Source: Candidatus Propionivibrio aalborgensis
GTDB taxonomy: Bacteria; Pseudomonadota; Gammaproteobacteria; Burkholderiales; Rhodocyclaceae
Assembly: GCF_900089945.1 (NCBI RefSeq)
Contig: NZ_FLQY01000246.1
Span: 1-64,000, forward strand
DNA: 64,000 nucleotides
Direction: 5' to 3'
Part shown: positions 27,381 to 63,939 of the stretch, piece after piece
Numbering within the stretch: the stretch's first letter is position 1
Layout: each line of letters begins with the position of its first letter
Notes under the pieces: generated by a model
Databases searched by the model: none
What the model saw: only the letters and a program-made list of their open reading frames with translations
Told to the model about the DNA's origin: nothing
Position numbers and translations under genes: made by a program

Positions 27381-27422
27381 GCCGACAAACCCCCTCGCTG
27401 ACATCTGTGATTTGCATGATTA

Positions 27423-42597: not shown

Positions 42598-43287
42598 CTA
42601 AATGCGATCCCGGAGCCGACGCTCGGCCGCAGCGAGATCTGCCGGGGTATCGATGTCGATGGACGACTCTTCGTCCATCAAATAGGGGATGATTCGCCCG
42701 CCGTAGATGAACTCCGGCAATCGTCCCGTGCGAGTGATATAGATTGCCGCTCCGTTACGCGCATAGGCCGGCTCCTTGTCCTGCCGACGAGTTGGCTGTG
42801 ATGCGTCGAGAAACGACTCGAGGTAACCTTCCGGGGTCTTGCGCATTACCGAGTAGGGATTGAATATGTGCGGCACCGGAATGCAGCTGACAAGGCTGTC
42901 TGCAGTCGCATCAGCTTCGAATAACGCTATTGCATCGTCAATGTGCGCAGCAGTGCGCAACGGAGACGTCGGCTGCAGGGTCATTACAGCGTCTGGGACG
43001 TAACTTGTCTTCGCCATTTCGCGGACTACATGAAGCAGCACTTCTCGAGTATCTGCCTGGTCATCGGCAAGAGCTGCGGGGCGCATCAGTACCTCCGCGC
43101 CCAGGGCACGACTCACCGCTAGAATTTCGTCGTCATCGCTTGACACGACAGTTCGGTCGAGACATTTTGCGGCATGTGCTGCCAGGATAGAGTAGGCGAT
43201 CAACGGACGCCCGGCGAGCGGACAAATGTTTTTGCGAGGAATCCCCTTGGAACCACCACGCGCGGGAATCACGGCCAATATACGCAT
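42598..43287 (-). CDS. neuA: CMP-nonulosonate cytidylyltransferase (NeuA/LegF/PseF family)
   Basis: 229 residues: MRILAVIPARGGSKGIPRKN contains the CTP-binding RGGSKGIPRKN (residues 10-20), followed by VVSSDDDEILAVSRALGAEV and MTLQPTSPLRTAAHIDDAI. The enzyme activates a nine-carbon acidic sugar as CMP-sugar using CTP. The length and core are like those of bacterial acylneuraminate cytidylyltransferases, which also accept legionaminic or pseudaminic acid. It abuts the GT-B-like gene and lies just downstream of neuC and neuB. Confidence 0.9.
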   Translation of the reverse strand: MRILAVIPARGGSKGIPRKNICPLAGRPLIAYSILAAHAAKCLDRTVVSSDDDEILAVSRALGAEVLMRPAALADDQADTREVLLHVVREMAKTSYVPDAVMTLQPTSPLRTAAHIDDAIALFEADATADSLVSCIPVPHIFNPYSVMRKTPEGYLESFLDASQPTRRQDKEPAYARNGAAIYITRTGRLPEFIYGGRIIPYLMDEESSIDIDTPADLAAAERRLRDRI

Positions 43288-43301: not shown

Positions 43302-44456
43302 CTAGTAGGTGATTTGCTTCTGGACGTTCACCGGCCCCAGAAACGCCAGCTTTTCAGCGATCCTCTCGCCGGCTTTGCCATCCCCGTAGATATCCTGCAT
43401 GGAATAACACCCATGGGAAATCTGTGTCGCGAGGGCATCGGCGATATCGGCAGCACTCGAACCCACATCCATGACATTGCTCCCGCGCTCTCTTGCCGTC
43501 TGGCGACTGCCGATGTTCACTACAGGCGTCCCGATGAATGCACCTTCACGAATGCCGCTCGACGAGTTTCCGACAAGACAAGCTGCCCGCTTCATCAGTT
43601 TGATATACGTCTCCGTCGGCAGATTCTTGAAAAAATGCATATTCTCGGCTTGGGTGTGTTCTCGCCATTTGCGCATGCCGCGTGCGATATCCTCGGAACC
43701 TGCATCGGCGTTCGGCCAAAGCACGATTGCCTGGATCCCGCGTTTACGCACCGCTTTCAGGGTCTCCGTGATTTGCTGCTCACCTTCGCCATATTCGGTC
43801 GTAACGGAATGCTGGCTGACGATCACAAAGGGTGTCCTCAGGTCAATCCTGTCGCCAACGCCGAGGTCGAATATATGGCTATCCAGATCATCGCCATCCT
43901 GTCGTAGGATTTCTGCCACCAGATCTATTCTCGGACAGCCGACGCGGAAAACCATCTCCGGCCGTTCGCCAAGCTTGATGATGCGCTCTGCCGCATCGCG
44001 GCTGGCGGGAAAGTGGATGTGGGCAAACTTGGTCACGGCGTGCCGGATGCTTTCGTCAATTGTTCCCGACACCTCACCGCCCATGGTATGGGCAACCGGA
44101 ATGTTCATATAGGCGGCGGCCAGAGTCGTTGCCATGGTCTCGAAGCGGTCGCCGACAGTAATCACAACATCCGGTTTTAGCCGCTCGAATACCGACGGCA
44201 ATTCAATCAGGCCGATGCCGGTCGATTTGGCCATGGTTGCCGGGGTTTCGCCCTCGATCAGGATATGCAATCGCTCATCGATCGCAAAGCCATCCCGCTC
44301 GATCAGGTTAACCACCTGGCCATAGCGATCAAGGACCGCCGAGGCCGTGGCGACGATCTGCAGTTCCAGATCGGGGTGACCCTGTATTGCGCGCATTGCG
44401 GACTTGATCGAACTGTAGTTCGCTCGCGATCCGATCACGGTACATATTCTTTTCAT
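43302..44456 (-). CDS. neuC: Hydrolysing UDP-N-acetylhexosamine 2-epimerase (NeuC/LegG family)
   Basis: 384 residues. ICTVIGSRANYSSIKSAMRA at the N terminus, TVGDRFETMATTLAAAYM, HTMGGEVSGTIDESIRHAV and GNSSSGIREGAFIGTPVV give the epimerase fold. NeuC makes ManNAc from UDP-GlcNAc; the LegG variant works on UDP-diacetylbacillosamine to give 2,4-diacetamido-2,4,6-trideoxymannose, the precursor of legionaminic acid. Sequence alone cannot tell which. Gene order neuB-neuC-neuA suggests one pathway. Confidence 0.88.
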   Translation of the reverse strand: MKRICTVIGSRANYSSIKSAMRAIQGHPDLELQIVATASAVLDRYGQVVNLIERDGFAIDERLHILIEGETPATMAKSTGIGLIELPSVFERLKPDVVITVGDRFETMATTLAAAYMNIPVAHTMGGEVSGTIDESIRHAVTKFAHIHFPASRDAAERIIKLGERPEMVFRVGCPRIDLVAEILRQDGDDLDSHIFDLGVGDRIDLRTPFVIVSQHSVTTEYGEGEQQITETLKAVRKRGIQAIVLWPNADAGSEDIARGMRKWREHTQAENMHFFKNLPTETYIKLMKRAACLVGNSSSGIREGAFIGTPVVNIGSRQTARERGSNVMDVGSSAADIADALATQISHGCYSMQDIYGDGKAGERIAEKLAFLGPVNVQKQITY

Positions 44457-44468
44457 CTTTGCCGGTCC

Positions 44469-45476
44469 CTACTTCGATACGGATGCCAAGACACTGAAGT
44501 CGTCAGCACTGAACTTGTGGTCAGGGGGCAGATCCTTTGAGACAACACGACCGATGAGCTCGCGGTAATCGGCTGCAGAAATACCGTCGCCCGGCTTCTT
44601 GAAGCAAAGATCGGCCATGCATATGGTCTCACCCGCTTTCAGAGGCCGCGAGCTAACAATGCTTTTCTCGAAGATCTGCTTCATGTCGCGGAATGGCTCA
44701 ATGTCGCCCTTGTCGATAGGCGAAGCCCACATCGCCCAGATTTCCCTCAGACCCGAGCAATAGGCTGTGAAACCATCCGGCTCCATGGCGTTGGCCGCAT
44801 CGCTGCCATACATCCGGCGCGAAAACGTCAGATGCTTTTCAATGACCGTCGCCCCCATGGCGGCAGCGGCAAAGGCGGCGGCACAGCTCTCAGTATGGTC
44901 CGAATATCCGACCGGTAGCCCGTAGCGGGCCTTCATCTCATCAATCACGTTCAAGCCGACTCTTTCCGGCGGGCACGGATAGGCTGAAGTGCATTGCAGC
45001 ACGGTCACCGGCCCGCCCACTTTCAGCGCCGCGACGGCGCGATCAAGCTCATCCCAGTTACTCATACCTGATGAAAGAAGAGCCGGCTTGCCCGTGGCCG
45101 CAATCTTCTCCAACAGCGGCAGATTGGTGACCTCACCGGAGGGTATCTTGTAGGCATCGACACCGACACGTTCCAGCAGGTCGACGGCCTCCAGTGAAAA
45201 TGGTGAGGAGAGAAAGGTGACGCCCATGTCCGCGCAGACTGCTCTCAGCTCATTCCACTGCGCCTCGGTGAATGCAATGCGGCGAAAATACTCCAGCCGC
45301 GGCTCACCTTGAAAGTACGGAGGTGTTGGAGCGTTGGCCAACGTTTCCGCTTCGGCGATGTGAGTTTGAAACTTGACGACGTCTGCACCACAATCTGCGG
45401 CGAGCTCCACGAGCTTACGGGCATTCCCGAACGAGCCATCGTGGACCGAACCGATCTCAGCAATTATCTGAGGCAC
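44469..45476 (-). CDS. neuB: Nonulosonic acid synthase (NeuB/LegI family)
   Basis: 335 residues. TIM barrel (about 1-255) with IIAEIGSVHDGSFGNARKLV, AYKIPSGEVTNLPLLEKIAA and VGYSDHTESCAAAFAAAAMG; the antifreeze-like SAF domain follows (about 275-335) with SIVSSRPLKAGETICMADLC and KKPGDGI. The enzyme condenses phosphoenolpyruvate with ManNAc or a 6-deoxy-diacetamido mannose to form a sialic- or legionaminic-type acid. It is the first of the neuB-neuC-neuA run in transcription order. Confidence 0.92.
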   Translation of the reverse strand: MPQIIAEIGSVHDGSFGNARKLVELAADCGADVVKFQTHIAEAETLANAPTPPYFQGEPRLEYFRRIAFTEAQWNELRAVCADMGVTFLSSPFSLEAVDLLERVGVDAYKIPSGEVTNLPLLEKIAATGKPALLSSGMSNWDELDRAVAALKVGGPVTVLQCTSAYPCPPERVGLNVIDEMKARYGLPVGYSDHTESCAAAFAAAAMGATVIEKHLTFSRRMYGSDAANAMEPDGFTAYCSGLREIWAMWASPIDKGDIEPFRDMKQIFEKSIVSSRPLKAGETICMADLCFKKPGDGISAADYRELIGRVVSKDLPPDHKFSADDFSVLASVSK

Positions 45477-46458: not shown

Positions 46459-48339
46459 TCAAGCGCTCTCGACGCTCTTGGGGGTCGCATGCACACCATC
46501 CAGCCACAAACTTACGTTCAACACTTGCCACAGAAACATCATGTGGTTTTCCTGATTCGTCCCGCTTCCGACAATGCGGACATGATCGTCGATCAAAGCC
46601 AGTACCCGGGCAGGATCAAACACGCCGTGATTCCTGAATCGCTGGGATGCAACCATGTCCCTCAACGCCGACAGCACCGGTCCACCGAACCAACGATGTG
46701 CCGGCGCATTCCACCCGGTCTTCTTTATCCGTGCTCGAGTGGGCTCCGGCAATACGCCGCGCATCGCCGTGCGGAGGAGCTGTTTCGTAACGCCGTCTCG
46801 AATCTGCAGCGAGCCAGGCACCCTGAACATGAACTCCACCAGCTCATGATCGAGAAACGGGTCGAAGTGCTCAAGCCCCACTGCTGTGCATTGACGATCT
46901 TCGGCGCGCAGGCAGCAAGGCAGGGTCTCGCGCAGCATGTCCTGATAGGTTCGGTTCTTGAGGTAGCTGGAAAACGGAGTATCCATAACCGGAGCGAATT
47001 TGCCCAGGTCGAAATAGTCTTCTCGAACTGCATCGGCGTAGCGCAGCATACGTTCCAGGTTCGGCAGGCACCGGCCAGGCTTCTGAAGATCGACCATGCC
47101 GGCCATCATTTGCTCGGCCACCTGGCGATTCTTGCGATGAATCGGGTGGTCGTGATGGCGCGCCCATGCATCGACTTCCCGTGCCAGGAGTTCCTCCTGC
47201 CCGCGCACCCTGAGGTCCGCGAAATACATCGGAAAATATTCGTACTCGCCGGCATTGAGTTCATCGCCACCGAGCCCACCGAACAACGCCGTATACCCGC
47301 GTTCCGCAACGACCCTGCTCAGGAGATGGTGGGACAACCACGTCGCCGTTGCCACCGGTTCGTCATGCACCCTGACCATATCGGACACGATTGCAAAGAT
47401 GTCTATTTCATCGTCGAGTTCGACAGGCACCCATTCGGACACCCGTTCGACTACCACATCCTTGATCTCTTCACGCTCATCGTAAGTAGGATCCACATAC
47501 ACACTGGAGAACGCCACCTGCCTTCGGTTCTGAACCACGCTGCTGCAGCACAGGACCGAGGAAGAATCCAGGCCGCCGGACAAAGTAAACGCCGGTCGCT
47601 CGACCGCATTCACTCGGCGGGAAACCGACTTCATGAGCAATTCCCGGTAGCGCTCGGCCAGGGATTCTTCGCCGTCAGTCCAGTCCGGCTGCGGTGTCAG
47701 CATCCAATATGGCCGGCACCGCCAAGCGCCTCCAGGCGCCAAGCGACCCCAATGCGCTGCAGGCAACTGCCGGATGTTTGCGTACGGAGACTCCTCCGGG
47801 GCATTGTCGAAGGTTCGATAGTGCAGGCCAACGAAACGGGCAGCGAAACCGCGGTTGATGTCAGTCCGAAGACCGAGTGCCAATAGCGCGCGCGGCTGAG
47901 ATGAGAATGCAAAACCACCGCCCGAAAGCTCTGAGTAATAGAGCGGTTTGACGCCGAAGCGGTCGCGTCCCAGCGACACGACACCATCGTTGGGCTCGTA
48001 AACGGCCACGGCGAAATCCCCGATGAGCCGCTCGAGCATCCCCTCGAATCCATGGCGACGGTAGAGCGCTGCGAGCAAGGCAAGATCGCCATCCGGCACG
48101 TCACCGATGTCCGTGCGGAGCTCGCGAGCATTCAGAATTCGTCCATCGATCGCAACTTGCAGGCCCTCGTGCGTTCCTGCCCCGCCCGTACCCGTCCGGT
48201 ACCCCTTCCAGCCGAGCGCGCCCTTGCCGCCATTCGTGCAGCTGACCATGGATCCTGGAACAACCTCCAGCATGGATTTGACCTTGGCCGGCACGGTGGC
48301 CACGTCAAAGGGAGAAACAAGACCTGATATTCGGGACAT
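46459..48339 (-). CDS. Asparagine-synthetase homologue lacking the glutaminase cysteine
   Basis: 626 residues. The synthetase domain is intact, including FTLSGGLDSSSVLCCSSVV (PP-loop) and FGGLGGDELNAGE. The N terminus reads MSRISGLVS, where active members have MCGIxGx: residue 2 is Ser, not Cys, and the NGEIYNH motif is degraded to AIDGRILNARELR. It therefore cannot release ammonia from glutamine in the usual way. Known Cys-less homologues include lasso-peptide cyclases and beta-lactam synthetases, which join acyl-adenylates to amines. Here it may use free ammonia or form an amide or other bond on a glycan. The start has no better in-frame alternative that restores a Cys. Confidence 0.85.
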   Translation of the reverse strand: MSRISGLVSPFDVATVPAKVKSMLEVVPGSMVSCTNGGKGALGWKGYRTGTGGAGTHEGLQVAIDGRILNARELRTDIGDVPDGDLALLAALYRRHGFEGMLERLIGDFAVAVYEPNDGVVSLGRDRFGVKPLYYSELSGGGFAFSSQPRALLALGLRTDINRGFAARFVGLHYRTFDNAPEESPYANIRQLPAAHWGRLAPGGAWRCRPYWMLTPQPDWTDGEESLAERYRELLMKSVSRRVNAVERPAFTLSGGLDSSSVLCCSSVVQNRRQVAFSSVYVDPTYDEREEIKDVVVERVSEWVPVELDDEIDIFAIVSDMVRVHDEPVATATWLSHHLLSRVVAERGYTALFGGLGGDELNAGEYEYFPMYFADLRVRGQEELLAREVDAWARHHDHPIHRKNRQVAEQMMAGMVDLQKPGRCLPNLERMLRYADAVREDYFDLGKFAPVMDTPFSSYLKNRTYQDMLRETLPCCLRAEDRQCTAVGLEHFDPFLDHELVEFMFRVPGSLQIRDGVTKQLLRTAMRGVLPEPTRARIKKTGWNAPAHRWFGGPVLSALRDMVASQRFRNHGVFDPARVLALIDDHVRIVGSGTNQENHMMFLWQVLNVSLWLDGVHATPKSVESA

Positions 48340-48350
48340 TTTGGCAATAT

Positions 48351-49049
48351 CTACAAAGAGGGTGCGGCGCGGACAGCCCGCAGAAAAGTCCAGGCATGAG
48401 GATAGCCGATCACCATCTCGGTCGTCCCCATCGCGCGACGGTCGACGACTTCCTCTACCTCGAAGCCATAGCTTTCTATGAAAGGCATGATCTCCCGTCG
48501 TGCATAGGTATTCACGTGAACCTTTAGCCGCACCCCGGGATCAAGGTATTCATCGACCACGTAGCGGCAATTCCCAACATCGGCGATGGACTCGCGCAAT
48601 ATGAGGGTCTTGCGCGCCGCCAGCAGCAGGCGTTCCAGCGGTCGGTGGAAATTGTCGATATTCGACAAGACATTCATGCACAGAACATGGTCTGCTGCGC
48701 CCTGAAAGTCCTCGAGCCGGCAAACACGCAGCCGGTCGACTGGAAGACCGAAAGCCGGCAACTCGTTCTGCCCGACTTCGATCAATTCGGCTGTCGCGTC
48801 GAAACCGTGATATTCGGCGTCAAGACCCCTCGCCGCGAGTGAGTGAAAAAAATAGCCACTACCACATCCCGCATCGAGAACACTGTCGCCCGGACGGAAA
48901 AACGGCGTCAGAAGCTCGGCGGCTTGGGCGGCGCACGTCATCTCCTCGGCCTCGCATCTCGCGCGCTTCCGGTAAAGCTCGCGAACGATGACGCTGTGCC
49001 GCCAGATGTTGTGGCCTTCGAAACCGCGGTTGTTGAGCTCCGCCTTCAT
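48351..49049 (-). CDS. Class I SAM-dependent methyltransferase
   Basis: 232 residues: SVLDAGCGSGYFFHSLAARG (motif I), then VLCMNVLSNIDNFHRPLERL and LILRESIADVGNCRYVVDEY. A C-terminal DRRAMGTTEMVIGYPHAWTF could bind the acceptor. Eleven bases from the Cys-less asparagine-synthetase gene. Substrate unknown. Confidence 0.82.
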   Translation of the reverse strand: MKAELNNRGFEGHNIWRHSVIVRELYRKRARCEAEEMTCAAQAAELLTPFFRPGDSVLDAGCGSGYFFHSLAARGLDAEYHGFDATAELIEVGQNELPAFGLPVDRLRVCRLEDFQGAADHVLCMNVLSNIDNFHRPLERLLLAARKTLILRESIADVGNCRYVVDEYLDPGVRLKVHVNTYARREIMPFIESYGFEVEEVVDRRAMGTTEMVIGYPHAWTFLRAVRAAPSL

Positions 49050-49074: not shown

Positions 49075-50025
49075 TCACTGTACCCGACCTACCAGGATGA
49101 AAGCCGATGCAAGGAAATGGCCGCGCCAGTCCTCGGGATCCTCCATGGCAATGCTGGCTCGGCGGAACAGCTTCGGAACCGCGCTTTCGAACATGGGCGG
49201 CAGGGCATGAAAATGATAGAACAGGACCCGGACATCGACCAGCCCCAGAGACTCGGCAAGTGCGCGCATCTCGAAGGGATTGTGGGTCCGCGACAGAACT
49301 TCGTCGTAGCCGGGTTCCTCGGCATAGCCTTTGCGTACCGGTGGCAGATCCATCCTGAATCGCTTGTCGAGATCGTCAAGCGCCCGTTCGAGCGCGTCCC
49401 GCTCATCACCGGCAGCAGCAAGCAGTCCATCGGAATCGATCAGACGGTTCTTGAACAGGCCGCTGCTATAGCGATTGAGGGTAAACAGGGAGAACAGCTC
49501 GTTTCGTGCCTCGATCGCAACGAGCCCGCCGGGGCGCACGACAGTCATGAAGTTGCCGATAACCGTGGCATCGCTGCCATCCCGCACATGGGGCAAGACG
49601 CCGAAGCAAATGCCGGCGTCGTAGTCCTTCTGCCCGTCAGGCGCGCCGAGAAAGGAGCTCCGTTCCAACACACTACCCGTCCAGATCCGATCCGAAGCAA
49701 TGCCATGGACAGACAGAACCCGCCGCGCCTCGGTAATCATTTCGGGCGTGAGATCGAAACCGTAAAGATTCAGTCCGAGGTCGACCAGGTCACGCAGCAT
49801 CGACGCCGGCCCGCATCCCGCATCGAGCAGGGTACGTGCGCCGGCGTTCTGCAGCAGTGTGCGCACGATATCGGTGTGGACAGGCGGATAGGCCGCATCT
49901 GACTTGTAGTACTCGTCGTAGTAACGTTCGCCCCACGTCGAATAGCAGTTGCGCACGGCCTGCTCCACGCGCTCGCGATCAGACGATGTCGGTTTCACGT
50001 TCATGTCCGGAGTCGATCCTGTCAT
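49075..50025 (-). CDS. Class I SAM-dependent methyltransferase (NELF-FTLNRY type)
   Basis: About 316 residues from MTGSTPDMNV; the ATG 11 codons further upstream is possible but overlaps the neighbour. Core motif TLLDAGCGPASMLRDLVD (motif I) and GICFGVLPHVRDGSDATVIG. The segment RNELFSLFTLNRYSSGLF recurs almost unchanged in the methyltransferase at 60246-61061 ([18 protein letters not shown]), indicating two paralogues acting on similar substrates. It is downstream of another methyltransferase gene by five bases. Confidence 0.82.
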   Translation of the reverse strand: MTGSTPDMNVKPTSSDRERVEQAVRNCYSTWGERYYDEYYKSDAAYPPVHTDIVRTLLQNAGARTLLDAGCGPASMLRDLVDLGLNLYGFDLTPEMITEARRVLSVHGIASDRIWTGSVLERSSFLGAPDGQKDYDAGICFGVLPHVRDGSDATVIGNFMTVVRPGGLVAIEARNELFSLFTLNRYSSGLFKNRLIDSDGLLAAAGDERDALERALDDLDKRFRMDLPPVRKGYAEEPGYDEVLSRTHNPFEMRALAESLGLVDVRVLFYHFHALPPMFESAVPKLFRRASIAMEDPEDWRGHFLASAFILVGRVQ

Positions 50026-50030
50026 TGGCG

Positions 50031-51071
50031 TCAGGACGGCAACCTGGCCACCAGCCACATGTGTGAGGACAGTCCCTGTTGAGCAAGGAACTGCTGAAAA
50101 GGCCAGCCGTGCTCATCCCATTGGTCAACAAGCACACGGTGCAGGAACGGATCGAGATCGATCTTCCCCTGCAATGCCGCCTCGCGCACGAATTCCGCGT
50201 CCAACCGGCCCGGCGTCAGTACCTTGAGAACCTCGAAACCACTGTCGGTCAACAGGCGAGCAAGCGACCCGGGATTGAACAGATTGACGTGCTCTGCATC
50301 AACGGCCAAGGCGCCGGCTCCGAGCATGGCAATGTCAAAACCCTGGCCATTCGGACAGGACAATACCAGAAGTCCGCCGGGGGCCATTATCGGCTTGATG
50401 CCCTCCAGGAAACAACGCGGCTCGAACAGATGCTCGACCACCTCGAAGGCGACCACCACATCCGCATCCTTGCAATCACCCCCAAGATCCTCGATCCGTT
50501 TCTCGATTACCTCAACGCCACGATCCCGGCATGCCTGAACCAATTCGGGCGTGGGTTCGACGGCCACCACACGGGCAAAGGCCCGTGATTCCGTGGCCAC
50601 CGAGGCGAAAGTCCCAAAGCCGGGGCCCACCTCCAGGAGCATGCCGCGCGGAATATGGAATTCCTCGCAGTAGTCGAGCACTCTCTTGAGCCAGGGCTTG
50701 TGGATCTTCTCGCGCCGGCTCTGTTCGGACGCCGGAAAAATATGCTTTGCCCAATAGGCGTAATTCTCCGAATTGGCATAGTAATCGCCCATGACCGCCT
50801 CAGACGGGCGTGGCGACATGTAGATCGTCCGGCAGGACTGGCAGAGGCAGAAGGTGAAGCCGTATTTCTCGAACGCCGGAGCGTACGTGGTCCCGCTACA
50901 GGCCGGACAGGGCACTGCCACGAACTCTACGGCACGCGCATGCATTCTGGCGATGTCCCGCTCGAATGCAGCCTCCTGCTCCTTCAGCAGATCATCCGGA
51001 CAGAGCTCAGACTCACTCAGCGGCTGGCCGAGCGCAGCCTCGGACACGGTAACGGAAACTTGATCGGTCAT
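50031..51071 (-). CDS. Zinc-ribbon class I SAM-dependent methyltransferase
   Basis: 346 residues. Zinc ribbon CPACSGTTYAPAFEKYG then CLCQSCRTIYMSPRP (about residues 55-90), and a SAM core with GMLLEVGPGFGTFASVATES and VVVAFEVVEHLFEP. The N-terminal 50 residues are charged and helical (LSESELCPDDLLKEQEAAFE). The acceptor is probably a nucleotide sugar or glycolipid. Confidence 0.85.
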   Translation of the reverse strand: MTDQVSVTVSEAALGQPLSESELCPDDLLKEQEAAFERDIARMHARAVEFVAVPCPACSGTTYAPAFEKYGFTFCLCQSCRTIYMSPRPSEAVMGDYYANSENYAYWAKHIFPASEQSRREKIHKPWLKRVLDYCEEFHIPRGMLLEVGPGFGTFASVATESRAFARVVAVEPTPELVQACRDRGVEVIEKRIEDLGGDCKDADVVVAFEVVEHLFEPRCFLEGIKPIMAPGGLLVLSCPNGQGFDIAMLGAGALAVDAEHVNLFNPGSLARLLTDSGFEVLKVLTPGRLDAEFVREAALQGKIDLDPFLHRVLVDQWDEHGWPFQQFLAQQGLSSHMWLVARLPS

Positions 51072-51128: not shown

Positions 51129-52961
51129 TCATTGCACGGCGACCGCGTCACCACACCGGAGATGCTCAACCATCTTGCGAAATGCAGGCAGATCGCTTGT
51201 CAGTTCGTTGAAGCTGCCCTGCCCGGCAACTTTTCCATCCTCAAAGAAATATATTGTATCGCAGTGAAAGATCGAACTTAGCCGGTGCGCAATGACGACA
51301 ATCGTCTTGCTGCCGCGAAGTTTCTGGATTGCCTCGGTAACCTCGTGTTCCGTCGTTGCGTCCAGAGAGGCTGTCGGCTCGTCGAGAATTATCACTGGAG
51401 CATCGAGATAGAGTGCGCGGGCGATGCCCAGGCGCTGGCGTTCCCCGCCCGAAAATGCATTACCCCGTTCTCCCATGGTTGAATTCAGCCGCCCGGGCAA
51501 GCCAATCACCTTGTCGTAGAGCGCTGCGCCTTTCAGTGCGTCATACACCTTGTCGTCATCTATTGACTCCGGCTTCATCCCGAAAGCGACGTTGCTGCGG
51601 ATGGTGTCGTCGAGAATCAATGGCTCCTGGGGAACGTAAGCGAAGAAGCCCGCTTGCCCGGGCTTGCCGGCGGGCATGCGGGGCTCCCCGTCAATCAGGA
51701 CGCGGCCACCCGCGGGTTCCAGCAAGCCCAGGAGAACGTCGACCGTTGTCGACTTCCCTGATCCGGAAGAGCCCGCAAAGCCAACGAGATGCCCGCTGGA
51801 AATCTCGATATCGACCCCATTGAGGGCGGGCGAGTCGGTGCCCGCGTACCGGAAAACCACATTCTCGAGCGTGATTGACCGCTCAAGCGCAAGCCGTCTC
51901 GTCGGAGGCGGCTTGCCGTCATCCAGGCTCTTCCGGTGTTCAGTTTCGAATTCACGATAATCCGGCAGTATCGCCTCAAGGCACGGAGTGGAGTTTCGAT
52001 ACAACTGCAGCGCGGCGATGATGCGGACAAAAGCCGGCGCCATGCGCAACGCGGCAATGCCGAATAAGGCCATCGTCGGGATGATCGACTGAACTGTTTC
52101 TCCGACGACAAAGACGCTGAACATGGTCCCGAATACGCCGACAACGATCACCGACTCCAAGATCAGGCGCGGAGTCTGTTGCGCAAGGCCGTTCTTGATT
52201 GTCAGGCTCATCTGCTCCTCGACAAGCGCACCAAATCTTTCTTCGAATGCCTTTTCGACCCCGTTGACTTTGATCGTCTTGATTGCGGCAGCCGTTTCGC
52301 CGACGGCGGCATAGACCCCCTCGTTCGCACGCATCATGCGCCGGCCCCAGAGGACCAATCGCTCGTGCATCACGTGCCAGTAAATGATCGCCAGGGCCGC
52401 AATAACGATCACCGCAACCAGTGTTTCAATGGGTTTTACCGCCAGAAGCGTGACGACGAACACAGCGGCCAGAATCACCGAACTCCCGATCTCCACCAGG
52501 CCCATCGTGCATTGTGCAACGGCGGCGCCGGCATTGGCCGTCACGTTGTTCATCAATTGCGAGGACTTCGATGAAAGGTGGCGAACGTAGGGCACACGCA
52601 TGTAGCCGGAAAAAAGCACACCGGCCACTCGCGTCTGGAGCTTCTTGCGCATCCAGAGCGTCATCCAGGTGCCGACGAACTGAATGGCGATCCGTACCAA
52701 AAAAACCGCCATGACGAACAAGGTCATGACAGCGAAGAACACGTGGCGCTCCTCGATCGCCATCCAGCCGTGGAGTTTTTGAAACAGTTCCAGGCCACCC
52801 AAGGTTTCCGGCTCCAATACCGCCTTGAGGAACACATAGACGAGGCCGACACCGCCGGCCTCGAGGATCGCACCGGCCAGATTGACGACGAACAACACCA
52901 GCAGCAAGAACTTTTCGCGTTCGTTCGCAAGCGCCAGGGAACCCTTGATGTGATTCAGCAT
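51129..52961 (-). CDS. ABC transporter with fused permease and ATPase (PglK/MsbA-like flippase)
   Basis: 610 residues: six membrane helices in the first 310 residues (VLFVVNLAGAILEAGGVGLV, FFAVMTLFVMAVFLVRIAI), then the ATPase with Walker A GFAGSSGSGKSTTVDVLLGL, the signature motif FSGGERQRLGIARALYL and Walker B APVIILDEPTASLDA. The architecture matches single-chain flippases such as PglK that translocate lipid-linked oligosaccharides. It probably exports the nonulosonate-containing glycan. This is a second export route beside Wzx in the same locus. Confidence 0.85.
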   Translation of the reverse strand: MLNHIKGSLALANEREKFLLLVLFVVNLAGAILEAGGVGLVYVFLKAVLEPETLGGLELFQKLHGWMAIEERHVFFAVMTLFVMAVFLVRIAIQFVGTWMTLWMRKKLQTRVAGVLFSGYMRVPYVRHLSSKSSQLMNNVTANAGAAVAQCTMGLVEIGSSVILAAVFVVTLLAVKPIETLVAVIVIAALAIIYWHVMHERLVLWGRRMMRANEGVYAAVGETAAAIKTIKVNGVEKAFEERFGALVEEQMSLTIKNGLAQQTPRLILESVIVVGVFGTMFSVFVVGETVQSIIPTMALFGIAALRMAPAFVRIIAALQLYRNSTPCLEAILPDYREFETEHRKSLDDGKPPPTRRLALERSITLENVVFRYAGTDSPALNGVDIEISSGHLVGFAGSSGSGKSTTVDVLLGLLEPAGGRVLIDGEPRMPAGKPGQAGFFAYVPQEPLILDDTIRSNVAFGMKPESIDDDKVYDALKGAALYDKVIGLPGRLNSTMGERGNAFSGGERQRLGIARALYLDAPVIILDEPTASLDATTEHEVTEAIQKLRGSKTIVVIAHRLSSIFHCDTIYFFEDGKVAGQGSFNELTSDLPAFRKMVEHLRCGDAVAVQ

Positions 52962-55028
52962 TCAATTTGCATCCAGCACATCCCGCTTCCAGGTACCGTT
53001 CTCCATGCGCCACACTCGCGGATCCCTGAAGGTGTCCGCGATCCGGTCGAACTCGTCTTCCGTCATTCCGACGTACTCGAGCCATCGCTTCAGGTCGCGT
53101 GGCTTGATGGGATCGTAGTGGTTGACGACTTCAACGGCTTTTCCGCGGGTCATGAGTTCGGCGCGAATGTCCTTGCATGCATGGTCGGTGGCGCGTCCGT
53201 ACCCGAATTTCACGTACTTCAGGTAGTCATGCACTCCGTTCTCGTGCATGTCGTCCAAGTTGGACATTGTCCGATAGGTGCGATCGAACGGCTCGTTATT
53301 CACCTCAAAGCCGTAGCGGTCGATCACCATCTTCGTGTGTTCATTGCCTTCCCAGTAAACATAGTTTCCGAGAAAGATTCCGCGCAATCCCAGGTCGAAC
53401 AGTGCCTCGTCGCCGGGATACTTCCAGGGAATCATGTCGGCACTCGTCAGTCCTTCGCGGCCGACAAAATAGTTCCACTCGTAGCCGCGGGCAAAGTGTT
53501 CGAGCCGATCGCGGTAACTGATCTCGGGGAAGTCGTCCATCGAGAACTGGCCGCACAGGTCCAGGTAACCGTGCTCGCCATAGAAGACCAATGGAATGCC
53601 ATACTGTGCGGCCACGCGAACCGGTGCAGTCATGATCCCCACATGGGCATGCCAATTCATGTCCCCCATGATTTCGAAGGCCAGCCGGTTGAGCTTTACC
53701 AGATTCTTTACTGCAGGTTGCACGATCAGATGGTCACAATCGAAGACTTCCTTCATGCGCAGCATGTTGCGCCATCCGACCGGCGTCCAGTTGTTGCCGT
53801 TGTAGGTCACCAGCAGCGGGTTCAGGCCGAGCTCATGCTTGAGGACATGGGTCTGAAAATAGCTGTCCTTGCCGCCGGACACGGCGATGACGCAATCGTG
53901 GCGCGCACCATCCCGGCTGCGGTAGCGATCGACGATCTCCCGCAGCAGCTCCCTGCGCCGGTCCCATTCGGAGCTGGGGATCGTCGCCTTCACCTTGGCC
54001 ATCTGGCAACCGGTACATTCGCCCGCGTCGTTGAATTCCATCGGCGCAGCGCTGATGGACGGGTAGACGCAACTGGTGCACCAGCGGATGTGGTGACGAC
54101 GTCCCGCGCTCTCGGGCCTTGCCGCGACGTAGTCGCCATCGCGTGCCTGGCGAAGCCGCTCGCTATGGCGGGCGATCTCGCGCTCGATGTCGTACTCCGG
54201 CACGCGCACGAGGTAGCGGCTGCCGAGGCCGACCGGACGGAGGGCCACCCCCGCGTCGATGCAGGCCTGCTTTGCGTGCGGGTAGCTGAGCTCGAAGAAG
54301 TGGAAGATATTCGCCGCCGAAATCGCACTCGCGCCGCCGTCGAGAACCCCCGGGGCAAAGTGCTCGTATTGCCCGACCCCACCGCAGACGATGACCGGTA
54401 TGGTCACCGCGCCAGTCACCGAGCGGACGAGGTCGAGGTCGTACCCCATTCCCGAGCCATCGCGGTCGATGGAATTGAGAAAGATCTCGCCGGCACCGAG
54501 CTCTTCGACGCGGCGGGCCCAGTCGGCCGGCGTCATGCCCGTCGGGCGCTTGCCGCCGTCGGCCATAACCTCGTAAGCGCCGCTACCATCCTCGCGGGCA
54601 TCAATGGAAACGACAATGCACTGACTGCCGAAACGCTCCGCCGCGCGCGAAACGAATGACGGATCGTCGATGACCGCGGTATTGATCGTAACCTTGTCGG
54701 CGCCTGCCGCGAGCCGGGCGCCGATGTCATCGATGCTGCGAATGCCGCCGCCGAAGGTCAGGGGCATGAAGCAGACCTTCGCCACCTCGCGCAAGACGTC
54801 GAGCACGGTATCACCCTCGTAGCGCTGCTGAATGTCGTCGCGACGAAGGTCATGCCCCGCATCGCCGGCCCTGATATCAAGTATGACAAGCTCGTCCACA
54901 TTCCAGTGCGAGTAACGCTCCACGGTGCTCATCGGGTTGCCGATCACCTGATGCACTTTGAACAACTGGCTGCGCACGATGACCCCGTTCTTCAGCAGGA
55001 GGCAGGGTATGAGGCGTGGCCGGTTCAT
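52962..55028 (-). CDS. Fused HisF2-type cyclase subunit and WbpG-type N-acetyl sugar amidotransferase
   Basis: 688 residues from MNRPRLIPCLLLKNG, whose ATG overlaps the hisH stop by four bases. Residues 1 to about 265 are a HisF-like TIM barrel: LIPCLLLKNG, LTFGGGIRSIDD, VVSIDAREDG, VIVCGGVGQ. As in HisF2 proteins of surface-glycan loci the first catalytic Asp of true HisF is replaced (Leu11) while Asp143 is kept. Residues about 313-688 are an N-acetyl sugar amidotransferase of the WbpG/PseA type: WCTSCVYPS, ECTGC (zinc ribbon), and the PP-loop VIAVSGGKDSYFQTHV (SGGKDS at 384-389). In Pseudomonas the separate WbpG, HisF2 and HisH2 convert an acetamido sugar to the acetamidino form. Fusion into one chain channels ammonia from HisH through the barrel to the amidotransferase site. 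Confidence 0.88.
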   Translation of the reverse strand: MNRPRLIPCLLLKNGVIVRSQLFKVHQVIGNPMSTVERYSHWNVDELVILDIRAGDAGHDLRRDDIQQRYEGDTVLDVLREVAKVCFMPLTFGGGIRSIDDIGARLAAGADKVTINTAVIDDPSFVSRAAERFGSQCIVVSIDAREDGSGAYEVMADGGKRPTGMTPADWARRVEELGAGEIFLNSIDRDGSGMGYDLDLVRSVTGAVTIPVIVCGGVGQYEHFAPGVLDGGASAISAANIFHFFELSYPHAKQACIDAGVALRPVGLGSRYLVRVPEYDIEREIARHSERLRQARDGDYVAARPESAGRRHHIRWCTSCVYPSISAAPMEFNDAGECTGCQMAKVKATIPSSEWDRRRELLREIVDRYRSRDGARHDCVIAVSGGKDSYFQTHVLKHELGLNPLLVTYNGNNWTPVGWRNMLRMKEVFDCDHLIVQPAVKNLVKLNRLAFEIMGDMNWHAHVGIMTAPVRVAAQYGIPLVFYGEHGYLDLCGQFSMDDFPEISYRDRLEHFARGYEWNYFVGREGLTSADMIPWKYPGDEALFDLGLRGIFLGNYVYWEGNEHTKMVIDRYGFEVNNEPFDRTYRTMSNLDDMHENGVHDYLKYVKFGYGRATDHACKDIRAELMTRGKAVEVVNHYDPIKPRDLKRWLEYVGMTEDEFDRIADTFRDPRVWRMENGTWKRDVLDAN

Positions 55029-55672
55029 GATGCGGTGTGTTCCGTTGCGATGGATACAAAGGCGTCGAGTATGCCCAGCCCGGCGTCCTGGCTTTTTTCC
55101 GGATGACACTGGATGCCGAACACATTACCGTGTTCCACCGCAACCGTCGCTTGTCCGCCGCCGAACGACATGGTCGCGGCAACGTGGCCGGGATTCGCGC
55201 AGATCATGTGGTAGCCATGGACAAAATAGAGCGGCGTGCTCGCGGCAAAATCGCGGAACAGGCGCGTGCCGTCGTGGGGCACGACATCGCACCAGCCGAT
55301 GTTCGGAACCCGCTCGCCGACACCCGGCTTGAGCCTAACCACCGCGCCCGGAATGATCCCCAGCCCCTTGTGGCTGCCATATTCCTCGCTTGAGTCGGCC
55401 AGCAATTGCATACCAAGGCAAAGGCCAAGAATCGGCTTGCCGGCCCGCGCCGCTTCGCGCAGCGGTTCCACCAGTCCTTTGTCCCTGAGTGCAGCCATGC
55501 CGTCACCGAATGCGCCGACGCCCGGCAGGACGATCGCCCGTGCACCTTCCACCGCAGCCGCATCGGCAACGAGGTCCGGTTGAACCCCAAGATGCTGGAA
55601 AGCCCGGACCACGGACCCGATGTTGCTGATTCCGATGTCGATGATGCTCAGTATGGGCCGCGGTTTGTTCAT
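55025..55672 (-). CDS. HisH2-type glutamine amidotransferase subunit
   Basis: 215 residues from MNKPRPILSIIDIG; the ATG overlaps the upstream stop by one base (TGATG). The class I glutaminase triad is intact: Cys85 in ILGLCLGMQLL, His190 and Glu192 in GIQCHPEKSQ. It supplies ammonia to the fused HisF2-WbpG protein by inference from its position and the known HisH-HisF pairing. A histidine-biosynthetic role is unlikely because the other his genes are absent and the partner barrel lacks the HisF Asp11. Translational coupling to the fusion gene is suggested by ATGA. Confidence 0.9.
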   Translation of the reverse strand: MNKPRPILSIIDIGISNIGSVVRAFQHLGVQPDLVADAAAVEGARAIVLPGVGAFGDGMAALRDKGLVEPLREAARAGKPILGLCLGMQLLADSSEEYGSHKGLGIIPGAVVRLKPGVGERVPNIGWCDVVPHDGTRLFRDFAASTPLYFVHGYHMICANPGHVAATMSFGGGQATVAVEHGNVFGIQCHPEKSQDAGLGILDAFVSIATEHTAS

Positions 55673-57009
55673 CACACGCGTACGGCTTCGGTTCGGGTGC
55701 ACTCGGAGAACGTCAGGCGCACCAAGCCCTTCTCTTCGTAGCGGCGCAGGTAGCGCAGCAGTCTTTCGAAAGGCAGGTCATGACGTTCGGCGATGTCGAG
55801 AATGGTCATTTTTCCGTCCATGTACCGGAACAGGCAGTCTAGCAAGTGACCCCATTTCTCCGCATCGGCGTCGAGATCCTTGGTCACCGTCGGATCGGGG
55901 CGTTCCATGTACAGGTCATAAGCCGGATTGGAAAGGCAGATCAGGCCGTTGAAGGTTCGCTGCACGGTGGCATCGCCTTCCAGCGTCAAGACCACCTGCC
56001 GCAAGACCTCCAGCATCTCATCCAACTGCCCGGGAATCATCAGTTCCGGCTTGTCGAGGCTGGAATGGTACTCGGGATAGGGAGCGAACTGATCCTCGCA
56101 ACGCGTCACTTCGACAAATGGAACTTCGTAGCCTGGAGCCTCCCACACGGTCTCATCGTTGCCAGCCCCCATGCGCCAAGGTACCAGGGCGTGTTCCCGC
56201 GCATGGTGCTTCAGGGCATTGGCGAAAGCGAAGTCCAGCTTGTGCCCGCCGTTGAACGTACTGGTTGCCTTCACGGCCCCGCCGGTGCCAGGCATTTCCT
56301 CGAAGACGCCGCAGACCATGCGCGCAACCTCACCCGCCGGCAGATCGCGAAGATAGAACACGCTTCCCAAGTGCTCGGGCCCGAGCACAAGGCGGTAGGT
56401 GTAATGGTTGTCGCGCGTTGCCAGCCACTGCATCAACCGGATCAACACGGCCGTGCCGGCGAAACCGTCGTTGGCCATGTGCGGATGGCAAGTGTTGGAA
56501 TTGAACACGACAATCTTGTCGCTGCGCCCCTTGATCTCCGCATGGGCAACCAGCATTTCGCCCGGCTCGTATTCCGTTTCCAGATCGACGCGGTAGCGGC
56601 CGGGCCCGAGATCCATGAAGACCCGGTATGGCATCGAGAACACCCAATCGGCGTCCCACGGCCGGTACTGCCAGACGCAGTGGAACATGTAGGCCTCGGG
56701 CTGGTTGGGGTTGGTCACCAAACGCGGGCGTAGTTCATCCCAGGAGAGTTCGCCGGAGAACGATTTCGAGTAGTAACCAACGCCCAGCGTGTTGGCCATG
56801 CCGTCGAAAACCTCTACGCCATCCCTATAAAGCTTGGCGCGCCTGACCCGCCAGTTGTCCGGTACTTGCCAGCCGTTATAGGCATCGCCCGAGGCAAAGC
56901 GGAACATCTGCAAGGGCAGTTCCCGGCCGATGCGCTCGAAAAGCGGCGCGTTTCCATCGGCAACCACGCCTGTGGCAAATTCGCACAACTCCTCAACTAG
57001 CTGGATCAT
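55672..57009 (-). CDS. DUF4910-type aminopeptidase-like protein
   Basis: About 445 residues from MIQLVEELCEFATG. The fold resembles M28-like metallo-aminopeptidases: VFNSNTCHPHMANDGFAGTA (His and Asp zinc ligands), then VCGVFEEMPGTGGAVKATST (Glu-Glu), and YEVPFVEVTRCEDQF. The C-terminal 80 residues form a winged-helix-like segment (TILDIAERHDLPFERLLRYL). Proteins of this kind recur in nonulosonate and flagellin/LPS glycan loci without known function. One base overlaps hisH. Confidence 0.72.
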   Translation of the reverse strand: MIQLVEELCEFATGVVADGNAPLFERIGRELPLQMFRFASGDAYNGWQVPDNWRVRRAKLYRDGVEVFDGMANTLGVGYYSKSFSGELSWDELRPRLVTNPNQPEAYMFHCVWQYRPWDADWVFSMPYRVFMDLGPGRYRVDLETEYEPGEMLVAHAEIKGRSDKIVVFNSNTCHPHMANDGFAGTAVLIRLMQWLATRDNHYTYRLVLGPEHLGSVFYLRDLPAGEVARMVCGVFEEMPGTGGAVKATSTFNGGHKLDFAFANALKHHAREHALVPWRMGAGNDETVWEAPGYEVPFVEVTRCEDQFAPYPEYHSSLDKPELMIPGQLDEMLEVLRQVVLTLEGDATVQRTFNGLICLSNPAYDLYMERPDPTVTKDLDADAEKWGHLLDCLFRYMDGKMTILDIAERHDLPFERLLRYLRRYEEKGLVRLTFSECTRTEAVRV

Positions 57010-57016
57010 TCTCGCC

Positions 57017-58546
57017 TCACATCGGCACCTGAACATCGGACTGAATAGATGAAACTATTATTTCCGTCGCTCGGCGGCCTATCGAACCCCCTTGCATCCG
57101 AACGCCTGACGCTGTCAACGTCTTGCGCAGCTCCCTGACGTACCCAGGAATTTCGGATGCAGACTGAGCGAGAAGTGCTCTCGGAATGCTGTTGAGAATC
57201 TTGCTCTCCTCATCCCGACTCAATATTCTAAAATGATCATAGATGATGAGAGGTTTCTTGAAGGTCAGTGCGAGCAGATTTGTTGAACACGGAAATGAAA
57301 TGCTGATTGAGCAGTAAGGATACAGATCGTGGATGCGAAAATCTGTACAGATAACTACCCCGTATTGCTCTTCCGCGAATCGGTAGTCTTCCAGGCGACA
57401 TAACGGATGCAGCGACAAAACTACCGGCAAACCAGATTCCACGTACTCAACGAGTGACGCCATAAGTTCATGGAACTGTCGCCAGTGCCGATTCCAATCG
57501 CAATATTTGTGTTCGGCCGATGGTTCAACATTGAACAGAATGAATGGTGATCCGACCGGAAGATTGACATGCGAGAACAATAGTTTCTCTTTCGCTGGAT
57601 CGCCAATCTTGGCCACTACGGCATCAAGGAGCGGCGGACCACTAACCACAATCCGATCCGCTGGATAGCCGTCGCGCAACAACAGTTCGCGCGAATACTC
57701 GGAATGGACGAACACCTTTCTGAAATCGAGCGATGGCTTCAACCACAAACGGTTCATTTGCAAGCCAGTCAGGGTCGCTGCCAGCATCGTCAGGGGATCC
57801 CAATAGAAAACCCTGTTACCGTCCGGAATAACACTGGTCCACGACGGAAAAAGCCACGCGAGAATACGGTTGATCGGGTCGTATCGGACGCGGATCACCT
57901 CGGACGCCATACCTTGCTCGAGGTGGTTCAAGCGGGCAACCCGTAGCGCTAGCGTCCCGAGATACGGCGAGTTCGGAATGCAATACATCGGGACTGATTG
58001 TCGAATGCACGCACGCGTCATTGCGTTGTCGATTTGCCCCGAGCTATGGTAGGACCCCATAATCACGGCGTCAGGCTGGTGTCTTGTGAGAATGGCTTTT
58101 GCAACGCGGCGCTTGGTCAGGCACTTCATGAGATGTATGGGTAAACTGAGCAATCGTGCGAGCCCTGTTTTCCGTATCCAAACCCGAAGAATGGTTGACT
58201 TCGTCGATGACTTACCTGCAGTAGGCTTCGTTGCCCCATTCGGAGCCGCTGGAACGACCGAGGTCTCCGGCGCTCCGTACCCAGCCTCTACCGGAACCGT
58301 CTCCACGGTGATGCCTTGTCTTCGACAAGCCTCGACGATGGGTTCAGTGTGATTGGAGTGAAATCCCAGCAGGACCGTTACGACAGCCCCCTTACGAACG
58401 AACTCCTCGACCACCGGTGCCGCCTCCCGATGGTAGGATTCCGCGGTAAATACGAACAAAACCGACAACGGAGTCAACCGCGCGATCTCAGCCGGCGTTT
58501 CAGCTTGGTGAATGTTTCGTACGCGGCGACCGGAACTCGATTCCAT
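57017..58546 (-). CDS. GT-B-like surface-carbohydrate biosynthesis protein
   Basis: 509 residues. The core starts TPLSVLFVFTAESYHREAAP and includes QPDAVIMGSYHSSGQIDNAM and a C-terminal donor-like region FKKPLIIYDHFRILSRDEES. The overall shape is that of GT-B proteins related to capsule and CDP-glycerol-type transferases. I do not recognise its substrate. It overlaps the upstream FkbM gene by 73 bases; a TTG start at about 58477 (before LTPLSVL) would remove nearly all of this, so the first 23 residues are uncertain. Confidence 0.6.
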   Translation of the reverse strand: MESSSGRRVRNIHQAETPAEIARLTPLSVLFVFTAESYHREAAPVVEEFVRKGAVVTVLLGFHSNHTEPIVEACRRQGITVETVPVEAGYGAPETSVVPAAPNGATKPTAGKSSTKSTILRVWIRKTGLARLLSLPIHLMKCLTKRRVAKAILTRHQPDAVIMGSYHSSGQIDNAMTRACIRQSVPMYCIPNSPYLGTLALRVARLNHLEQGMASEVIRVRYDPINRILAWLFPSWTSVIPDGNRVFYWDPLTMLAATLTGLQMNRLWLKPSLDFRKVFVHSEYSRELLLRDGYPADRIVVSGPPLLDAVVAKIGDPAKEKLLFSHVNLPVGSPFILFNVEPSAEHKYCDWNRHWRQFHELMASLVEYVESGLPVVLSLHPLCRLEDYRFAEEQYGVVICTDFRIHDLYPYCSISISFPCSTNLLALTFKKPLIIYDHFRILSRDEESKILNSIPRALLAQSASEIPGYVRELRKTLTASGVRMQGGSIGRRATEIIVSSIQSDVQVPM

Positions 58547-59622: not shown

Positions 59623-60249
59623 CTATGCTTTTTGGTCGAGGGTGAAGTGAGTACCCACGTAGCCGAGCAAACTCTGCACGCTTCGCTCGATGTCTGTCGC
59701 CGACGTTTCGAGAACAAGTTCAGGCTTGAGGGGTGCTTCGTACGGAGCGCTAATTCCGGTGAACGCTTCAATTTCGCCTCGCCTCGCCTTACCGTAGAGC
59801 CCTTTGGGATCGCGAGCCTCACAAACCTCGAGCGACGTCGCAACGTGGACTTCGTGAAACAGTTCGCCGGCAATCGCGCGCACACGGTCGCGGTCGGCGC
59901 GATATGGCGAGATGAAGGCCGTAATCACAAGGCAACCCGATTGCGCAAAGAGCTTGGCGACCTCGCCGATACGGCGGATATTCTCCGCGCGATCCGCGGG
60001 CGAAAATCCCAGATCGGCACACAGTCCGTGACGAACGTTGTCTCCGTCGAGAACGAACGTGCGCCAGCCTTTCTGAAACAGAAGCCGGTCCAGCTCGAAT
60101 GCCAGCGTCGTCTTTCCAGACGCAGACAGACCAGTGAGCCAGAGTATTCCACTGCGATGGCCATGCGCCATCCACCGGTCCTCAAGTGATACCTTGTGCT
60201 CGGTGAATTGAATGTTCTTGGATCGCATTTCTCGCCAATTCGACTTCAA
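59623..60249 (-). CDS. cysC: Adenylylsulfate (APS) kinase
   Basis: 208 residues from the ATG at 60249, which overlaps the upstream stop by four bases; a second ATG seven codons later is also possible. Key motifs: P-loop [18 protein letters not shown] (P-loop at 40-47), [34 protein letters not shown] and [19 protein letters not shown]. It phosphorylates APS to PAPS, the universal sulfate donor. No ATP sulfurylase or PAPS reductase is adjacent; the nearest user of PAPS is the sulfotransferase at 61902-63059, so a role in glycan sulfation is likely. Confidence 0.93.
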
Positions 60250-63059: not shown

Positions 63060-63063
63060 ATGG

Positions 63064-63939
63064 TCAGCCCGCCGGCACGGCCGCGACGATGATGTCGTCG
63101 CACTGCCGCCCGCGGTCCAGCGCCTGCTGGATGACCGGGATGAAGTCGGCCAGAACATCGAACAGCTTCGGATCGTCGGCCCTGAGCGCCGCCTGAACAC
63201 AGGTTTCGTAGGCATCCATGCCGAAATACCAGGCCGCCACGGGCACGAATCCTTCGTCGACCAATGCAGTGCATAGCGAAGCATCGGTAAAGCCATTGAC
63301 GTGCGTCGTGGGATCCATGTGACGCGCGATCACTGCACCCTCCATACCCTGAACCATCGTGCCGAGCGAGTCGACACGCGGAACTTCGACTATCAGCATG
63401 CCGTCGGGACTCAGCCGCCGTAACGCGGCGACAATGAAATCGCGAGGTTGTGCCACGTATTCAAGCAGGCCCCAAAAGGTGATGAGGTCAACCGGTGCGC
63501 CACCGGCCGACAGGAAATCGTCTTCGCGCAACTCCAGGCCGAAGGCATCCTGGGCAAAGACGCGCGACGCACGCGATTTCTCGAACCCCTCCACCGCCAT
63601 GCCGCGGCGCTGCGCCCCGGCCAGAAAATGCCCGCCGCCTGCCCCGACATCCAAGACGGTCCGTGGCGATTTTCCGGTCCGCCGCTGGAAATGCTCCAGG
63701 CACCAGTCCAGCTTGGGAGCGATGATCTGGGTCATGCGGGTTTCGATCGCACTGTGATCGATGTAGGTCGACGAATGCGCTTCGGATTCGGCGAAAACCT
63801 CGTCCAGAACTTCGGGTCGGGGCCGCGCTCCGACGCCTACATGGCCGCAGCTACCACAGCGCAGATAGGGTACGCCGAACACGGCCAGTTCGACGGCTGC
63901 ACCGTCGAGGGACGCATGACAAAGTGGACACTGCGTCAT
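63064..63939 (-). CDS. Zinc-ribbon class I SAM-dependent methyltransferase
   Basis: 291 residues with an N-terminal zinc ribbon (Cys4, Cys7, Cys28, Cys31 in CPLCHASLD and CGSCGHVGVG) and SAM motif I, TVLDVGAGGGHFLAGAQRRG. The next motif ITFWGLLEYVAQPRDFIVAA and LSPDGMLIVEVPRVDSLGTM follow. It is the fourth methyltransferase in the window with this zinc-ribbon N terminus. Four bases upstream of the sulfotransferase. Confidence 0.85.
   Translation of the reverse strand: MTQCPLCHASLDGAAVELAVFGVPYLRCGSCGHVGVGARPRPEVLDEVFAESEAHSSTYIDHSAIETRMTQIIAPKLDWCLEHFQRRTGKSPRTVLDVGAGGGHFLAGAQRRGMAVEGFEKSRASRVFAQDAFGLELREDDFLSAGGAPVDLITFWGLLEYVAQPRDFIVAALRRLSPDGMLIVEVPRVDSLGTMVQGMEGAVIARHMDPTTHVNGFTDASLCTALVDEGFVPVAAWYFGMDAYETCVQAALRADDPKLFDVLADFIPVIQQALDRGRQCDDIIVAAVPAG

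Follow-up and report, generated by a model that had tools for sequence, protein, structure and literature searches.

HisH2 and HisF2 take part in sugar amidination in Pseudomonas aeruginosa. In the HisH2-HisF2-WbpG system of P. aeruginosa O5 and the WbuX/WbuZ system of Escherichia coli O145, the glutaminase, the barrel and the PP-loop amidotransferase are three proteins. The same three parts are present in the DNA analyzed here, a stretch of 64,000 nucleotides from Candidatus Propionivibrio aalborgensis (contig NZ_FLQY01000246.1; hereafter the window), but the barrel and the amidotransferase form one chain joined by a conserved linker. The locus therefore raises the questions of whether this chain is a real protein, how it arose, and whether its barrel could still deliver ammonia to the attached enzyme. 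The original prediction had started from the premise that known systems use separate proteins, which agrees with two further reports: HisF, HisH and an LPS biosynthesis protein stand in successive table rows for Legionella pneumophila Sg6 (PMC3694923), and a WbuX, HisF2 and HisH trio is given for Sphingomonas (PMC11340318). As in the window, these are adjacent genes of a glycan locus, but they are unfused.

A Single Chain with Two Domains

The fusion gene reads without interruption from the ATG at 55028 to the stop at 52962, and an upstream GTG start would yield 715 residues instead of 688 (Table 1). This single frame and the NCBIfam domain matches bear out the prediction of one 688-residue chain carrying a barrel and an amidotransferase. 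The C-terminal part (residues 315-664) passes the WbuX model TIGR03573 with 289.2 bits against a cut-off of 203.2. The barrel stays below the cut-offs of WbuZ (TIGR03572, residues 1-244, 266.2 against 299.7 bits), of HisF (TIGR00735, 241.5 against 294.55 bits) and of AglZ/HisF2 (NF038364, 222.5 of 310 bits), yet its residues 1-264 match HisF/WbuZ models at E values of 2e-79 and 8e-72, and Pfam agrees with the assignment. The barrels of five split relatives that were scored also fall short of the WbuZ and AglZ/HisF2 cut-offs. On these scores the fusion barrel is HisF2-like, rather than a WbuZ, HisF2 or HisF equivalog. The solved structure that best matches the barrel in sequence is HisF-LUCA (4evz); for the C-terminal part the only such match is LpNASAT (8wex).

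Table 1. Features of the fusion locus in the window, with the basis of each assignment.
Feature	Position	Strand	Basis
hisF2::wbpG fusion gene, 688 aa	52962..55028	-	Single open frame; WbuX model above cut-off
HisF-like barrel, residues 1-262	54243..55028	-	HisF/WbuZ models, alignment
Linker, residues 263-313	54090..54242	-	Conserved R264, R275-(E)-P-x-Y279, R291
N-acetyl sugar amidotransferase (PP-loop) domain, residues 314-688	52965..54089	-	WbuX model
hisH2 glutaminase, 215 aa; Cys85, His190, Glu192	55025..55672	-	TIGR01855 passed
DUF4910-DUF2172-HTH_47 protein	55672..57036	-	Pfam (HTH_47 just under cut-off)
ABC transporter	51129..52961	-	PF00005; no NCBIfam cut-off reached among matches listed
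SAM methyltransferase 1 of cassette	50031..51071	-	Pfam
SAM methyltransferase 2 of cassette	49075..50058	-	Pfam
SAM methyltransferase 3 of cassette	48351..49049	-	Pfam
Asparagine-synthase-like amidotransferase	46459..48339	-	PF00733 and PF13537
NeuB-like nonulosonate synthase	44469..45476	-	PF03102; TIGR03569 352 bits, below 399.65
NeuC-type UDP-GlcNAc 2-epimerase	43302..44456	-	TIGR03568 409.2 bits, cut-off 235.9 passed
PseF-like CMP-sugar cytidylyltransferase	42598..43287	-	PF02348; TIGR03584 152.6 bits, below 205.7

Relatives were collected by a genome scan with the window protein as query; of 143 confirmed stretches, the best 80 were used, and they gave 79 loci. Stop-to-stop frames were scored in 83 loci, four of them from the window's own genome; 37 loci are fused (window included), 40 are split, and six are partial and were placed in neither class. 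Counts of 36 fused loci leave the window out, and counts of 37 fused sequences include it.

Residues of the Barrel and of HisH2

At position 11, where HisF-LUCA and the HisF of the same genome have Asp, the window barrel has Leu. The original prediction was correct as to this missing Asp, but split barrels share the loss: the 36 scorable fused sequences have Leu (35) or Phe (1), and among 38 scorable split barrels the residue is Leu in 17, Tyr in 11, Phe in 8, Asn in 1, Ile in 1 and Asp in none (two of the 40 split sequences are gapped there). Loss of Asp11 is therefore rejected as a mark of the fusion. All scorable sequences, whether fused or split, keep the equivalents of R5, E46, D98, K99, D130, E167 and D176, and these include R5, E46, K99 and E167, which we take to be the barrel gate of HisF. 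In the window barrel the gate residues are R5, E46, K112 and E181, and the channel residues are thus retained. D98 of HisF sits at the HisH interface (PMC8115485), and D11 and D130 are described as the catalytic pair of the cyclase (PMC11350729). Because Asp130 and Asp176, which the cyclase family also uses, are kept, the supposed loss of cyclase catalysis depends on position 11.

A (Y/H)DLRRDD-type insertion follows strand 2 of the barrel (fusion residues 54-68, window positions 54825-54869). By a loose criterion, an Arg within at least six residues, it is present in all 37 fused and in 38 of the 40 split sequences, the other two being truncated, and it is lacking in the single true HisF used for comparison, that of the same genome. 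The insertion may be a docking element, with the WbpG domain as a candidate partner. Two barrel positions, S40 and H59, are shared by at least 90% of the fused and at most 20% of the split sequences.

HisH2 passes TIGR01855 with 189.9 bits against a cut-off of 105.4, and by this score and its Cys-His-Glu triad it is a HisH-type class I glutaminase. The Cys, His and Glu residues and the Lys that follows are kept in all 36 HisH sequences of fused loci. As predicted, the hisH2 frame (55672-55025) shares ATGA with the start of the fusion gene, and the same overlap of four bases is found in 5 of the 33 fused loci in which it was measured. In 34 of the 36 other fused loci hisH lies upstream of the fusion gene; in one locus (L032) it lies downstream, and it is absent from the short contig of another (L019).

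The Amidotransferase Domain and the Predicted Structure

In PMC10607449, which describes WbpG and WbuX, the family motifs are a zinc tetracysteine, CXXC...[GN]XCXXC, and a PP-loop, SGGXDS, and the reaction is one of ammonia in place of water. The zinc cysteines (317, 320, 338 and 341) are kept in all 36 aligned fused sequences and SGGKDS (at 384) in all 37, and GEHG stands at 484. With the WbuX cut-off passed, these motifs present and the LpNASAT fold matched, the C-terminal domain is, as far as its sequence can tell, an N-acetyl sugar amidotransferase of the WbuX/WbpG type, for which amidination is predicted. Seven positions of this domain (W316, Y488, Q494, F495, Y520, G523 and 634) are shared by at least 90% of the fused and at most 20% of the split sequences. 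Close to the conserved GEHG, residues 488, 494 and 495 are Tyr, Gln and Phe in the fused proteins, as against mostly Phe, Met and His or Tyr in split ones; these fused-clade residues (488-495) hint at a different substrate.

An AlphaFold2 (AF2) model made from 36 aligned fused sequences has a pLDDT of 89.0 and a pTM of 0.90 over both domains. Because two mobile domains of this size (about 264 and 376 residues) would be unlikely to give such a pTM, the fusion is read as one confidently predicted body with a defined domain arrangement. In fold comparisons, the model matches 8wex_A with a Z-score of 37.9 (rmsd 2.5, 351 residues, 30% identity) and HisF chains with Z-scores of 32-36 among the matches listed. 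Family models, alignments and predicted folds thus agree on the domain identities first proposed, HisF2-like and WbpG-type.

A Model for the Fused Enzyme

Taken together, the locus is likely to encode a two-chain, glutamine-dependent N-acetyl sugar amidotransferase in which ammonia is channeled via a retired barrel. By family resemblance, HisH2 would hydrolyze glutamine and release ammonia, which would tunnel through the HisF-like barrel, a conduit that would have lost its cyclase chemistry, and the attached ATP-dependent amidotransferase would then make an amidine on an N-acetyl sugar. The fusion and its conserved linker would hold barrel and synthase side by side. We infer the glutaminase activity, the tunneling, the use of ATP and the amidine product, and also an acetamidino product on the surface glycan, by analogy with the known systems. 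In favor of this model are the WbuX score, the fold matches, the pTM of the predicted structure, the replacement of Asp11, the kept gate, triad, zinc and PP-loop residues, and the upstream position of hisH in 34 of 36 fused loci. Against it are the barrel scores below the WbuZ, AglZ/HisF2 and HisF cut-offs, the kept Asp130 and Asp176 of the barrel, and the distribution of NeuB homologues, which lie within flanks of up to 6 kb of 7 of the 36 fused but 31 of the 40 split loci.

Gene Neighborhood and the Nature of the Substrate

In order of transcription, the genes for the DUF4910 protein, HisH2, the fusion, the ABC transporter and three methyltransferases are followed by those for an asparagine-synthase-like enzyme, a further methyltransferase and the NeuB-like, NeuC and PseF-like proteins. 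This run is part of a glycan island that also encodes Wzy-like proteins, epimerases and glycosyltransferases, and the neighboring genes support the glycan setting originally proposed. An ordered run of three methyltransferase genes follows the fusion in at least 15 of the 36 other fused loci and in none of the 40 split loci, and in 13 of those 15 an asparagine-synthase-like gene comes next; a DUF4910 gene precedes the fusion on the same strand in 17 of the 36 fused loci, and no split locus of the 40 shows this arrangement. The cassette counts are lower bounds, because the downstream DNA is shorter than 4 kb in six fused and three split loci. In a looser count, DUF4910 is near 18 of 36 fused and 1 of 40 split loci, and the asparagine-synthase-like gene near 17 of 36 and 3 of 40, respectively.

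The DUF4910 protein encoded directly upstream of hisH2 is metallopeptidase-like and may act in the pathway of the fusion. It is not an obligate partner, being present in half (18/36) of the fused loci, some of which lie on short contigs. DUF4910 proteins have been proposed to act in the synthesis of modified sugars, and in that work DUF4910-DUF2172-HTH_47 genes stand, as here, amid methyltransferase, epimerase and NeuB-type genes (PMC4000134); its main text does not mention HisF, WbpG or an amidotransferase.

From the NeuB counts it follows that most split sisters adjoin nonulosonic-acid genes, and that for a large part of the fused clade no such genes are visible in flanks of up to 6 kb. Because the fused clade differs in gene context and in positions near GEHG, it may act on a different sugar from its split sisters. 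A possible, though less probable, alternative to the model above is accordingly that the substrate has changed, so that the fused chain amidates not the N-acetyl group of a nonulosonic acid but another amino sugar or metabolite of the DUF4910/methyltransferase/asparagine-synthase cassette. The restriction of the cassette to fused loci (15/36, against 0/40 split), the fused-only residues Y488, Q494 and F495 beside GEHG, and the scarcity of NeuB near fused genes argue for this reading; the NeuB-, NeuC- and PseF-like genes in the same gene run of the window and the NeuB homologues that flank seven fused loci argue against it.

A further extension, for now speculative and rather doubtful, is a dedicated, horizontally spread pathway in which the amidine made by the one chain would be N-methylated by the downstream methyltransferases, or elaborated by the asparagine-synthase-like or DUF4910 enzymes, to give an undescribed surface sugar, the barrel being purely an ammonia pipe into an attached, unrelated synthase. 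The methylation step is suggested by analogy with PtmH (Cj1325), which is reported to N-methylate the amidine of CMP-Leg5Am7Ac (PMC3766260).

Other genes of the island were also noted. Asparagine-synthase-like amidotransferases are encoded at 15782-17638, 25428-27404 and 46459-48339, and a fourth lies just past the window end together with a second NeuB-like gene and genes for a GNAT protein, an epimerase, a DegT-type aminotransferase, a cytidylyltransferase and a stand-alone WbpG paralogue. Three frames of 315, 550 and 509 residues (39019-39966, 40945-42597 and 57017-58546) match neither Pfam nor NCBIfam models at E 0.001. An APS kinase (59623-60249) and a Sulfotransfer_3 protein (61902-63296) are encoded in the same island, with homologues near 4 and 8 of the 36 fused loci, respectively, and near none of the 40 split loci; the glycan or a group that it carries may be sulfated.

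The WbpG paralogue (G000:C246:65413-66507; L085:2374-3495) scores 306.9 bits with TIGR03573 and adjoins the asparagine-synthase gene, with no HisF or HisH match beside it. Its relatives (55-62% identity) lie near the fusion gene in six loci (L021, L023, L029, L031, L033 and L054), and in genome G036 a WbpG paralogue lies 12 kb from the fusion. Paralogues of this kind, which stand without an adjacent barrel, would fit the idea that the barrel is a scaffold only, the amidotransferase using free ammonia and HisH2 not being its working partner. We regard this idea as improbable, given that hisH accompanies the fusion gene upstream or, once, downstream, that its triad is kept throughout, and that the barrel gate is kept.

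Recurrence and Origin of the Fusion

The linker, predicted at about residues 266-312, is placed by alignment at 263-313 and contains a conserved motif. It is 40-52 residues long in the fused proteins, and R264 (35/36), R275 (35/36), E276 (34/36), P277 (33/36), Y279 (34/36) and R291 (35/36) are conserved, the window protein having Val at 276. The mean share of the majority residue is 60% over positions 263-296 and 32% over 297-313, compared with 73% in the barrel and 76% in the WbpG domain. Split barrels end at most about 13 residues past position 260 and lack the motif, the exceptions being L052 (25 residues) and L081, which is odd and truncated. The linker is not a simple read-through of present-day split sequence.

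A search of other genomes, as the original prediction had proposed, found the same one-frame fusion in at least 36 other loci, which encode 35 distinct proteins (those of L006 and L049 are identical). By record title these loci span nine named phyla: Pseudomonadota (16), Myxococcota, Cyanobacteriota and Thermodesulfobacteriota (4 each), Actinomycetota (3), and Verrucomicrobiota, Planctomycetota, Fidelibacterota and Armatimonadota (1 each), with one unranked; single assignments may be wrong, because many carriers are metagenome-assembled genomes. The fusion is thus a real chain but is not peculiar to the window's genome. That a sequencing or assembly artifact joined two genes, a read-level frameshift being one of the findings that would have refuted the prediction, is extremely improbable even though the source genome is a draft (405 contigs, 5.01% contamination) and a lone in-frame stop parts the two frames in 4 of the 40 split loci (L039, L040, L042 and L045), because the one-frame fusion and its homologous linker motif recur in 36 other loci and the fused proteins form a single clade.

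Among 59 genomes (the window's own, 27 congeners, and others of the family or order), the full fused frame was found only in the window's genome and in G036, a member of the same order, and of 398 genomes of the phylum, three, that of the window among them, matched a model of the junction. Because carriers are few among relatives and yet occur in many phyla, the gene is rare, accessory and spread across phyla. Carriage by phages or plasmids was considered and rejected on the IMG/VR, phage and plasmid records searched. None of the 65 IMG/VR loci is fused, the five fused sequences beside that set coming from the window's genome, G036, G066 and G353. None of 14 phage records with a match covers 80% of the query; 7 of 97 plasmid records do so, each as two joined pieces of 31-36% identity, which are annotated as separate genes in six and unannotated in one.

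In trees of the barrel alone, of the WbpG domain alone and of both together, all 37 fused sequences lie on one side of a single branch, with SH-aLRT values of 100 (barrel) and 97 (WbpG) and, in the careful joint tree, a bootstrap of 100 and an SH-aLRT of 99. An earlier quick joint tree, which left out L081 (short barrel) and true HisF, gave this branch a support of 96. Alignment A1 was made without L019, and alignment A2 without L019 and L049. When 26 further split pairs, 25 of them from viral contigs, were added, the fused clade remained intact (SH-aLRT 99) and the added sequences fell on one side of one branch (97). The first 39 split sequences require two changes in this enlarged tree, the pattern expected of a fused clade nested within them. 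Because all fused sequences group in one clade amid split relatives, with support of 100 and 99, a single fusion event that then spread is most likely. Repeated independent fusions are not supported, since each of four trees requires one change of state; the trees contain several long branches, with one join of long branches flagged, and a query-centered sample taken from the best 80 of 143 stretches could miss distant or independent fusions.

Relation to Known Systems and Significance

The three parts are known; their covalent arrangement appears to be new, and the fused form has a separate clade and often a separate cassette. The barrel differs from the named WbuZ and HisF2 equivalogs in lying below their cut-offs. 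LpNASAT (8wex) shares the fold, the zinc tetracysteine and the PP-loop with the C-terminal domain but is itself a stand-alone chain, and the main text of the paper on it does not mention HisF, HisH or a tunnel. In the accessible literature on histidine-gene fusions, which covers HIS7, hisNB, hisIE and HisHF-type fusions, HIS7/HisHF resembles the present chain in that a HisF barrel is joined to a partner of an ammonia-channeling complex; there the barrel is an active cyclase fused to the glutaminase, whereas here it lacks Asp11 and is fused to the acceptor enzyme. A HisF-WbpG fusion is named nowhere among the matches listed from the accessible open-license PMC literature, which is weak evidence that none has been reported. 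No account of how HisH2/HisF2 hand ammonia over to WbpG-type enzymes was found in the searchable literature.

The fused form offers a handy route to the study of ammonia transfer between enzymes, because a natural barrel-acceptor chain reduces the system to one protein and HisH2, which is suited to crystallography, cryo-EM and assays of gate mutants. The linker motif provides a simple sequence marker of a distinct, mobile amidination clade, often with its own cassette. The fusion would show that the barrel of an enzyme can be kept for its passage after its catalysis has been lost.
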